From a bacterium (GTDB taxonomy: Bacteria > Patescibacteriota > Patescibacteriia > SG8-24), in the NCBI GenBank assembly GCA_021824285.1, contig JAKAKZ010000007.1, positions 1-40,073 of the forward strand: a DNA stretch of 40,073 bases, read 5' to 3'. The notes below the pieces were generated by a model. The model was given only the letters and a program-made list of their open reading frames with translations, was not told the origin of the DNA and ran no database searches. The first letter of the stretch is position 1, and every line of letters begins with the position of its first letter. Positions 3 to 37,374 of the stretch are shown one piece after another. The translations under genes were made by a program, and so were the position numbers.

Positions 3-161
3 ATGCGCACACCGTACATGCTGGTCATCGGCGACAAGGAAAAGTCGCTCAAGAAGCTGAACGTCCGCATCCGCGGCAAGCAGAAGGAGAAGCCGATGGC
101 GCTCAAGAGCTTCATCGCGGCCGTCCAGAAGGAGATCGCGGGGCGGAAGATGACGCCGTAG
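3..161 (+). CDS. thrS: Threonyl-tRNA synthetase, C-terminal fragment (5' truncated by window)
   Basis: Frame from nt 3 reads MRTPYMLVIGDKEKSLKKLNVRIRGKQKEKPMALKSFIAAVQKEIAGRKMTP*, resembling the ThrS anticodon-binding domain C-terminus (PYMLVIGDKE..VR.R). Confidence 0.7.
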   Translation: MRTPYMLVIGDKEKSLKKLNVRIRGKQKEKPMALKSFIAAVQKEIAGRKMTP

Positions 162-220
162 GGGGAGTTTGGAGCGGGGAGCGTGTAGTCTGGAGCCAGC
201 GTCGGAAATTGAGAACATAA

Positions 221-247
221 GAATCGCCCAGCTCCGCTGGGCGATTT
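221..247. terminator. Bidirectional intrinsic terminator between convergent genes
   Basis: gaatcgcccag-ctcc-gctgggcgatttt hairpin flanked by A/T tracts. Confidence 0.75.
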
Positions 248-301
248 TGATACGTTCCTCTTTCAATCTCCAACTCCAAACTCCAGACTCCACGCTTCCG
301 A

Positions 302-4332: not shown

Positions 4333-4345
4333 GAATCGACCACAG

Positions 4346-4375
4346 AAAACCCCGCCTTAACCGGCGGGGTTTTTC
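4346..4375 (+). terminator. Intrinsic terminator
   Basis: aaaccccgcc-ttaa-ccggcggggttttt directly after the 57-aa gene. Confidence 0.85.
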
Positions 4376-4384
4376 GTTCAGCCG

Positions 4385-4433
4385 GCGCGGTCCGCCACAG
4401 GCACGCGTCGGTCCGTCCGGCGACGGACCGCGC
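4385..4433. repeat. Nested palindromic element, type 2
   Basis: Outer arms gcgcggtcc / ggaccgcgc and inner hairpin ggtccgtc-cggc-gacggacc; 3' half resembles 9979-10014. Confidence 0.45.
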
Positions 4434-4513
4434 TAAGCCTCGGCGCTTCACATGAGAACGGTCTTCGTAGCGCTTGAAGGTTTTGGTTTAGAGTTTCTCC
4501 GCCACTTATGTCT

Positions 4514-4548
4514 AGTCAAAGAAGGCGGGGTCCCGCCAACGGCGGGAA
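4514..4548 (+). repeat. REP-like palindromic element, copy 1
   Basis: agtcaaagaaggcggggtcccgcc-aac-ggcggga. Confidence 0.7.
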
Positions 4549-4582
4549 ATGTTTAGATTCCTGTTTACTTCAGTAAGGCATC

Positions 4583-4611
4583 AAAAATCGCGCCTGTCGG
4601 CGCGATTTTTT
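4583..4611. terminator. Bidirectional intrinsic terminator
   Basis: aaaaatcgcgcc-tgtc-ggcgcgatttttt. Confidence 0.8.
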
Positions 4612-4659
4612 CTTTCACTTTTAATCCTCTACACCTCTAAACCCTTAAACCCGATTCAA

Positions 4660-7023: not shown

Positions 7024-7075
7024 TGGGCGGGTTTAGGGGTTTAGAAGTTTCCCCGTCACTTAACTTTGTTTTATA

Positions 7076-7104
7076 GAAGGCGGGGTCCCGCCCAAAAGGC
7101 GGGA
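7076..7104 (+). repeat. REP-like palindromic element, copy 2
   Basis: gaaggcggggtcccgcc-caaaa-ggcggga. Confidence 0.7.
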
Positions 7105-7175
7105 AGGTGTTTAGTGGTCATTGATTCGATTCTTAATGGTTTAACCACTCAGCCGCTTAACCGCTTCACAGACGC

Positions 7176-7184
7176 ATCATAGCA
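7176..7184 (-). promoter_or_regulatory. Extended -10 promoter TGCTATGAT
   Basis: Minus-strand TGCTATGAT upstream of the 7023 start. Confidence 0.4.
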
Positions 7185-7318
7185 AATTATAGGCTGGGTG
7201 GGGTAGGCGGGGTGGGTGTTGAGATGTCAGAGATCAGATATCGGATATCGGAATCGGTGGACGCGCGTGATCTCCCACATCTGTTCTCTGATCTCGGTTG
7301 TGAAGTTACTAAGTAACG

Positions 7319-7342
7319 AAAAAACCGCCACAAGGGGCGGCT
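7319..7342 (-). terminator. Intrinsic terminator downstream of tmk
   Basis: Minus strand reads gccgccccttgtggcggttttttc. Confidence 0.6.
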
Positions 7343-7348
7343 GGAGAT

Positions 7349-20957: not shown

Positions 20958-21021
20958 TTTAAGGTTTGGAAGTATGGAGTAGCGCCGCTCCGAACTCCCG
21001 CACCTCCGCACCTCCATCCAA

Positions 21022-24200: not shown

Positions 24201-24342
24201 CGGAGATGCGGATGGCCGAAGATGCGGAGGCCGGCCGTATCGCCATCGGATCACCCCATATTTCCGCGTCCCCGCCACTTCGCGTCCCCGCATCTCGTCC
24301 ACCATTGATATTTCCGCCAGTTTCCGTTACTAATAAGCCGTT

Positions 24343-25785: not shown

Positions 25786-25820
25786 GGGTTTAGAGTCTAG
25801 TGGTCTAAGAGAGAAGGTCA

Positions 25821-25845
25821 ACCGCGCCTGACAAGGGCGCGGTTT
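25821..25845. terminator. Intrinsic terminator
   Basis: accgcgcctgacaagggcgcggttt; GC stem, weak T tract. Confidence 0.55.
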
Positions 25846-25941
25846 GGCGTCCGGGGATCACGCCCCCCGCACCCATAAACTTCTACACTCCTAAACTTTT
25901 ACACTTCTAGACCCACCCAATATAATGATGTGGACATCTCT

Positions 25942-36249: not shown

Positions 36250-37278
36250 ATGCTCAAAAAGACATTACTGTTCGCACTGGTTTCCTTCGGACTGGTCTGG
36301 ACCTATTACTGGTACGTGCGCGGCATCAAACTCCTGTTGGCGGAGGAGGATGTCCAGACCCTGCAGCCTTACGCGTCTTTCGCCGTGCGCTTGCCGGAGA
36401 AGACCGCCGCGGGACCGCGCTGGGAGTCGGCAACGCCCCTACCCGTGGAACTGACGGCCGCGGAAGCGGTGACGCTGGGCAGCAGCATTTATGTCATCGG
36501 CGGGCTGGATGCCTTCGGCCGTTCCGTGGCGGCCGTGCGGGCTTTCGACGTCCTGCACAACTCTTGGAGCGATCGTGCCCCATTGCCGAAGCCGTTGCAG
36601 AACGTGGCGGCCGCGGCCTACGGCGGCAGGATATACGTCTTCGGCGGCTTTGCCGGCCTGACTGACGTGCCGAGCAATTCCGTATATATATATGAAGCCT
36701 CGACCGACAGCTGGTCCAGCGGCCGCAAGATGCCGCAGGCCACGGGCGCTGCTGCCGCGGTCACTGTCGGTGACGCGATCCATGTCCTGGGCGGCTTCTC
36801 CCAAGGCCAGAGTTCGGACATGCATTACATTTATGATCCGGCGCTTAATTCCTGGCGTCAGGCGGACGCGCTGATCTCTGGCCGTGACCGGTCGGCTGTC
36901 CTGAACCATGACGGGTTGATCTACGTCTTCGGCGGACGCCAGGGTTCGGTACTGTATCCGATCGCCGACACGGCCATCTATTCTCCAGGCAACGACAGCT
37001 GGGACGATTTTCCGCACATGCCCGTCAAACGGGCGAATGGCGGCGTGGCCGAGGTCAACGGACAGGCCTATCTTTTCTGCGGTGAAACCGCTACGACCGT
37101 AATCGGCCAGGTTGATGCCCTTGATTTCGAGAACCGTTCTTGGTCCCAGGCGCTGCCCATGCCTACGCCACGGCAGGGCTGTGCCGTCGCGTCTTATGGC
37201 GGGCGGATATTCGTGATCGGCGGCGGACGCAAGCCCGTGCTTTCGGTCTCGAGCCTCAATGAGGTATTCGTGCCATAA
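36250..37278 (+). CDS. Kelch-repeat (beta-propeller) protein, membrane anchored
   Basis: YVIGGLDAFG, YVFGGFAGLTDV, HVLGGFSQG, YVFGGRQGS, FVIGGGRKP with spaced W residues; N-terminal TM. Confidence 0.88.
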   Translation: MLKKTLLFALVSFGLVWTYYWYVRGIKLLLAEEDVQTLQPYASFAVRLPEKTAAGPRWESATPLPVELTAAEAVTLGSSIYVIGGLDAFGRSVAAVRAFDVLHNSWSDRAPLPKPLQNVAAAAYGGRIYVFGGFAGLTDVPSNSVYIYEASTDSWSSGRKMPQATGAAAAVTVGDAIHVLGGFSQGQSSDMHYIYDPALNSWRQADALISGRDRSAVLNHDGLIYVFGGRQGSVLYPIADTAIYSPGNDSWDDFPHMPVKRANGGVAEVNGQAYLFCGETATTVIGQVDALDFENRSWSQALPMPTPRQGCAVASYGGRIFVIGGGRKPVLSVSSLNEVFVP

Positions 37279-37374
37279 CGAAGTGTGAAGCGTGGAGTTC
37301 GAAGCGTGGAGCTACGAACACACAGCCGCCATCCATCAAACTCCACACTCCCCACTTCGCACTCCAAACTTCTA

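Follow-up and report, generated by a model that had tools for sequence, protein, structure and literature searches.

Roughly one in five gene-to-gene gaps in this draft bacterial genome carries paired, facing blocks of short degenerate words, and on balance we lean towards regarding these blocks as a lineage-specific family of dispersed intergenic repeats, made of convergent short units and kept alike by DNA-level exchange between loci, with at least 51 copies in the 43% of the genome that was sampled. The sample, taken in stretches, amounts to 571 kb of a single 1.33 Mb draft assembly, of which the window (the whole 40,073-nucleotide stretch of DNA analyzed here) is contig C7, and its genes were called with a simple home-made codon model. 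The closest match of the MiaB protein encoded in the window is from Candidatus Uhrbacteria, at 62% identity.

Facing arrays in the spacer after thrS

The fragment of thrS that opens the window encodes 52 amino acids that are 96% identical to the C-terminus of a 604-aa ORF on contig C43, which represents the full thrS gene and which relatives match over its full length. Several sites within positions 1-56 of the window are different in the C43 copy, and the next 127 bases are identical. Strain variation was considered as an explanation for this second thrS end and rejected, because identity of the final 127 overlap bases up to the contig end has the look of an assembly-graph overlap; the start of the contig seems to be a minor variant joined at that overlap.

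The arms at this locus extend from 2 nt past the thrS stop codon to 2 nt short of the end of the convergent gene (Table 1). As described in the first-pass annotation, AGCGTGTAGTCTGGAG (180-195) and CTCCAGACTCCACGCT (281-296) match as inverted copies at 15 of 16 positions, and a repeat tool recovers the arm pairs 177-195/281-299 (17 of 19 matching) and 164-174/274-284 (11 of 11). The intrinsic terminator reported amid the arms was likewise found as a hairpin, and the suggested RNA folding of the region (155-305) yields -67 kcal/mol (z = -5.5), a stability attained by none of 200 shuffles. Shuffled spacers do not pair equally well either: with the terminator masked, the inverted-arm score of the thrS spacer is reached by none of 100 dinucleotide shuffles, and the same holds for its periodicity score. 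The thrS 16-mer finds a partner matching at 15 of 16 positions in no other sampled spacer and one matching at 14 of 16 in four; the locus therefore illustrates its class well and is not a special case.

The architecture had also been said to recur, with different words, at other spacers of the window, and six further spacers can indeed be named (Table 1). For the spacer at 4333-4659 the inverted-arm score is reached by 6 of 100 shuffles and the periodicity score by none. The arms that fill the spacer at 37279-37374 read GAAGTGT GAAGCGT GGAGTTC GAAGCGT on one side and CTCCACA CTCCCCA CTTCGCA CTCCAAA CTTC on the other. No Rfam model matches within the window at gathering score.

Table 1. Coordinates of the thrS locus, of further array spacers in the window (contig C7) and of related features elsewhere in the sample.
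Feature	Location	Strand	Basis or remark
3' end of thrS (threonyl-tRNA synthetase)	18..161	+	stop codon 159-161
Left G-rich heptamer array, GGAGTTT GGAGCGG GGAGCGT GTAGTCT GGAG	164..195	+	reading, inverted-repeat search, periodicity
Intrinsic-terminator hairpin between the arms	217..251 (about; core 222-246)	.	hairpin search
Right C-rich array, same word class as left arm	268..299	-	G-rich on - strand; + strand letters CTCC-AA-CTCC-AAA-CTCC-AGA-CTCC-ACG-CTTCC
Convergent neighbor ORF, 390 aa	302..1474	-	no Pfam match
Spacer containing two terminator hairpins, octamer arms of the GGTTTAGA type	4333..4659		
Spacer with inverted arms, octamers of the GGGTTTAG type	7024..7348		0/100 shuffles in both tests
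Short spacer with mixed GGAG-type arms	20958..21021		0/100 shuffles in both tests
Spacer with GGAGATGC-type octamers	24201..24342		reading; TRF array 24204-24233
Spacer with RGTYTARR octamer arms flanking a terminator hairpin	25786..25941		
Spacer filled by heptamer arms, no terminator	37279..37374		between a Kelch-repeat gene and xseA (exonuclease VII large subunit)
RAYT-like gene with AAGGGGACAGTCCCTTTT-type repeats	L208:1215-2000 (G000:C58, around 36651-36980)		
Spacers with GA/CT runs	L011:3103-3447, L011:4498-4860, L029:16685-16886, L035:2678, L047:7661-7947, L047:16370		

Extent across the sampled genome

In all, 324 spacers of 50-500 bp were scored for inverted arms and for periodicity (periods 6-9) against 100 shuffles each, a spacer being taken as positive when its score was reached by at most one of them. 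Significant inverted arms were detected in 73 spacers and periodicity in 83, with about 6.5 expected in either case, and 51 spacers were positive for both. The first 282 kb contain 67 arrays of at least three GRAG cores, against 6 expected from a first-order simulation, and the density of GRAG words in spacers is 7- to 15-fold higher than elsewhere, the upper value being that of the GRAG heptamers. The proposal that a degenerate repeat system forms inverted arms at many spacers is thus upheld far above chance, with word classes that differ between spacers. Contig ends fall inside arrays in 2 of 55 cases, as compared with 2.5% of interior stretches, which is not clearly an enrichment.

Near-identical array copies amount to one tandem-duplicated pair only. 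Two adjacent spacers (L011:141-370 and L011:731-976) are near-identical; one palindrome is almost unchanged between them and the other has diverged within its word class, and the two spacers constitute a small natural record of word change.

Word classes and composition of the arms

At least five word classes (GRAGYKK, GRAGWYGC, RGTYTARR, RGTTGAR and GAGGTKTK), defined after inspection of the data, can be distinguished. The dominant ones are the GRAGYKK heptamers, which include GGAGTGT, GGAGCGT, GAAGCGT, GGAGTTT and GGAGCGG, and the GRAGWYGC octamers, which include GGAGATGC and GGAGACGC. Array length is narrowly distributed, mostly at 3-5 units, and a few long regular arrays are also present (G000:C4 6771-6865 and G000:C52 1458-1545). 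Within the heptamer, G1, A3 and G4 are about 90% conserved even with the middle unit unconstrained; position 6 is occupied by G in 147 units, T in 69, C in 16 and A in 3, and position 7 by T in 144, G in 60, A in 21 and C in 10. The variable positions are not mutation-like; their composition obeys a rule that mutation by itself would not produce. Long GA/CT dinucleotide runs were also observed in spacers (Table 1), often opposite degenerate CTCTTTCTCTCT tracts and in several instances within near-identical spacers, and the GA-type tracts seem to be one further arm class.

In 71 of 77 spacers both arms belong to the same class, whereas permutation gave 19.5 on average and 36 at most; the tally is inclusive, some class patterns being single words. 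This agreement stops at the level of the class. The system had been described as locus-specific, and locus-specific complementarity was rejected in three versions of a comparison between own and foreign arms: own heptamer arms pair no better than swapped arms of the same class (p = 0.99), the same is true of extended arms (p = 0.96), and by RNA duplex energy own arms are, if anything, worse (p = 0.99). The corresponding values for the small sets are p = 0.69 for the octamers, p = 0.19 for RGTYTARR and p = 0.42 for RGTTGAR. With all classes pooled, own arms are far better (15.05 vs 10.02), because arms share a class.

A role for slippage had also been suggested, and here the classes part company. 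The octamers show a weak local similarity (p = 0.004); adjacent heptamers agree at 4.867 of 7 positions, against 4.865 for shuffled units (p = 0.51), their similarity is the same as that to heptamers from any locus (0.695 vs 0.695), and identical heptamer neighbors are, if anything, rarer than expected. Since neighboring heptamers are no more alike than units elsewhere, local slippage does not explain the heptamer class and was rejected for it. Arms, in short, share word class and not word order, and each heptamer behaves as if drawn independently from a vocabulary common to the whole genome.

Polarity and position relative to genes

In 73 of the 77 spacers with both arms, and in all 45 of those with significant inverted arms, the G-rich arm lies ahead of the C-rich one. 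Within classes, all 21 heptamer pairs are G-first, and so are 7 of 7, 7 of 7 and 4 of 4 pairs in the others. Arrays lie nearer to the gene on the 5' side of their own G-rich strand in a proportion of 116:27, and unpaired arrays do so in a proportion of 50:15. Common descent of a palindromic unit would trivially give one class its polarity; it does not account for the same polarity in every class.

The placement of the arms at transcription-unit ends, and with it a role in 3'-end protection, was not borne out. An adjacent outward array is found at 59 of 329 gene 3' ends (17.9%) and at 54 of 319 gene 5' ends (16.9%; p = 0.76), and double-positive spacers occur between divergent genes (8/58) as well as between tandem (36/203) and convergent ones (7/63). 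Specificity for 3' ends was rejected on both counts, the equal frequency at the two gene ends and the similar rate in divergent spacers. Of 35 strict pairs, 12 enclose a terminator between their arms, 3 have one beyond the arms and 20 have none.

Distribution among relatives

All nine same-family genomes examined have a hairpin or terminator after thrS, and in none of the nine is it accompanied by arms. The arms that the first-pass annotation would have expected at orthologous spacers are therefore lineage-specific, although not unreal, and are most simply read as arrays that this lineage acquired to the left and right of a pre-existing terminator. Double-positive spacers, in relatives sampled by one or a few stretches per genome, number 1 of 221 in the same family, 11 of 240 in other Patescibacteria and 4 of 183 in other bacteria. 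These few present the same architecture in other words, such as AACTGAC, TTCAATT or GTAGCGA. Array density is thus exceptional in this genome, and the architecture is not unique to it.

The four-core heptamer pattern, with 88 occurrences here, has none in the nine same-family genomes, and in a phylum sample of 380 genomes five others contain 1-2 matches. To judge from the letters of one locus, a near-identical vocabulary recurs in a distant genome from another class of the phylum (G075), in which L211:1440-1540 harbors a true facing pair (GGAGCTT GGAGTTT GGAGCGT). In two other Patescibacteria, heptamer arrays of GGTTGAG or AGTTGAA lie apparently within coding sequence (L217 near 1500 and L227 near 1500). 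The open-licence literature yielded no report on point of such repeats in Uhrbacteria, Patescibacteria or the Candidate Phyla Radiation.

Comparison with known repeat systems

The closest known counterpart is provided by the convergent GGGAATC heptamer pairs of Xanthomonas, described as GGGAATC / GGGANTN heptamers together with the GGGGA(C/T)T repeats of Nostoc (Rehm et al. 2015, PMC4692102). The Xanthomonas heptamers have a mode of four units, are placed nearer to the 5'-neighboring ORF and form 70-75 convergent inverted pairs per genome (PMC4692102). The two systems have in common intergenic G-rich heptamer arrays of about four units with some degenerate positions, enriched 15-fold in spacers in the present case, as well as gene-proximal placement and convergent pairing; the octamer classes depart from the 7-nt period. 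The system reported here differs in harboring several vocabularies and both 7- and 8-nt units in one genome, in comprising classes with few or no GG runs, in having most of its detected arrays paired and in its host, a tiny Patescibacteria genome. Furthermore, the repeats of Rehm et al. are under-represented between divergent genes, a shortage not seen here (8/58). Four GGG tracts, as needed for a three-layer quadruplex, occur in none of 52 heptamer arrays, and four GG tracts in 18 of them; G-quadruplex formation was hence rejected as a general property. The lack of arrays with four GGG tracts, the lack of divergent depletion and the several degenerate vocabularies set the system apart from the quadruplex-forming family, and it looks like an extreme, many-worded relative of the Xanthomonas repeats rather than a member of that family.

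The heptamer repeats of cyanobacteria are named STRR. These repeats, for which a Calothrix report is cited in PMC4692102, and the TAACTGA arrays of Beggiatoaceae, Cyanobacteria and Bacteroidetes (MacGregor 2015, PMC4679880) resemble the present system as intergenic heptamer arrays scattered among genomes. The TAACTGA repeats of the Beggiatoaceae genome are mostly one exact word, arranged as direct repeats upstream of start codons (PMC4679880), and they lack the facing-pair architecture seen here. With REP/REPIN sequences and their RAYT transposases the system shares dispersed intergenic palindromes, but it has no conserved palindromic core, and unit number and word order vary. Intrinsic terminators and 3' stabilizing hairpins are comparable insofar as the arms at thrS, and those of 12 of the 35 strict pairs, enclose a terminator, yet arms are equally frequent at 5' gene ends and mostly without a terminator.

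Origin and possible function

In the reading that we favor, with some reserve, an element would consist of two arrays of degenerate 7- or 8-mers, mostly 3-5 units each, with the G-rich strand reading inward from each flanking gene. Such arrays would have spread into sequence where insertions are tolerated, and would stay alike through DNA-level copying or exchange between loci, by ectopic conversion or template switching. On this view the imperfect hairpin, in RNA or DNA, would arise largely as a by-product, and any part it played in buffering transcription in both directions would be secondary. This reading is consistent with the enrichment in spacers and the proportion of double-positive ones, with arms that match in class and not in units, with neighboring heptamers only as similar as units from any locus, with equal frequency at 5' and 3' gene ends, and with the absence of arms at orthologous thrS spacers together with a genome-specific vocabulary. 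Against it, the position constraint and the rule-like variation are more orderly than neutral drift would leave, and exchange by itself does not explain why all classes have the same fixed polarity.

It is possible, if rather unlikely, that the arms are instead selected as two-way transcript-end or insulator hairpins, in which the RNA arms would form a long imperfect stem around the terminator or in its place, stabilize 3' ends and limit read-through in both directions, with selection keeping pairing only at the level of the class. The very stable fold at thrS, the class match, the terminator between the arms in a third of the strict pairs (12/35) and a strand-symmetric design suited to both directions would all be expected on these grounds. 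No excess at gene 3' ends accompanies them, however, the rate in divergent spacers is similar, 20 of the 35 strict pairs have no terminator, relatives lack the arms at thrS, and the RNA duplex energy of own arms is no better than that of foreign ones.

We consider it doubtful, more so than hairpin selection, that GRAGYKK and its sister words are degenerate recognition units of a nucleic-acid-binding protein, with facing arrays organizing the chromosome or isolating neighboring genes. Conserved core letters with restricted alternatives elsewhere, the narrow array length and the fixed polarity would suit such a protein, but several unrelated vocabularies with 7- and 8-nt periods would require several proteins, and no candidate has been identified. 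None of exchange, hairpin function and protein binding fully explains the R/Y/K rule.

Local slippage combined with hairpin-templated copying, whereby the polymerase would switch template at the terminator hairpin and write an inverted copy opposite, would account for fixed polarity and for class-matched arms on either side of a hairpin, and the octamer similarity and the few long regular arrays are in line with it. It also predicts a match in word order between own arms and alike neighbors, neither of which is true of the heptamers, and it is very unlikely, being already disfavored unless later exchange has erased the signal.

Transposase-driven mobility of a palindromic element, of the REP or MITE kind, is similarly disfavored and, in our view, slightly less probable still. 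A palindromic unit would show the same polarity whichever direction it was inserted in, and the genome does contain one Y1 transposase (RAYT-like) gene. On either side of this gene, on C58, stand clusters of a different, palindromic AAGGGGACAGTCCCTTTT-type repeat, with which it apparently makes up an ordinary REP/RAYT pair distinct from the word arrays, none of which adjoins it, and RAYT/REP mobility of the arrays was rejected on this basis. Moreover, arm length and word order vary, near-identical copies are restricted to the tandem-duplicated pair, and the thrS arms enclose a terminator that relatives also have. Equally improbable is a telomere-like mode of writing, in which an enzyme working from a few templates or rules would extend 3' DNA ends at spacer breaks with degenerate G-rich 7- or 8-mers, and the two capped ends would then be joined head to head. 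Such a generator would account for a larger share of the statistics, namely the constant G-first polarity, arms alike in class but not in units, the independence of neighboring words and the R/Y/K degeneracy. It fits poorly, however, with arms that enclose a terminator common to relatives, it has no candidate enzyme, and no reverse transcriptase (RVT_1) was found in the assembly.

Heptamer repeats in bacterial spacers have been found in several groups and have no accepted origin or function. The coexistence of several vocabularies in one genome gives access to statistics that are beyond the reach of single-word genomes, and the combination of class-matched but unit-unmatched arms, independent neighbors and rule-bound positions tells against a simple hairpin-selection model and, in the case of the heptamers, against slippage in its simple form. 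The mechanism that generates such repeats thereby becomes directly testable through the comparison of strains.
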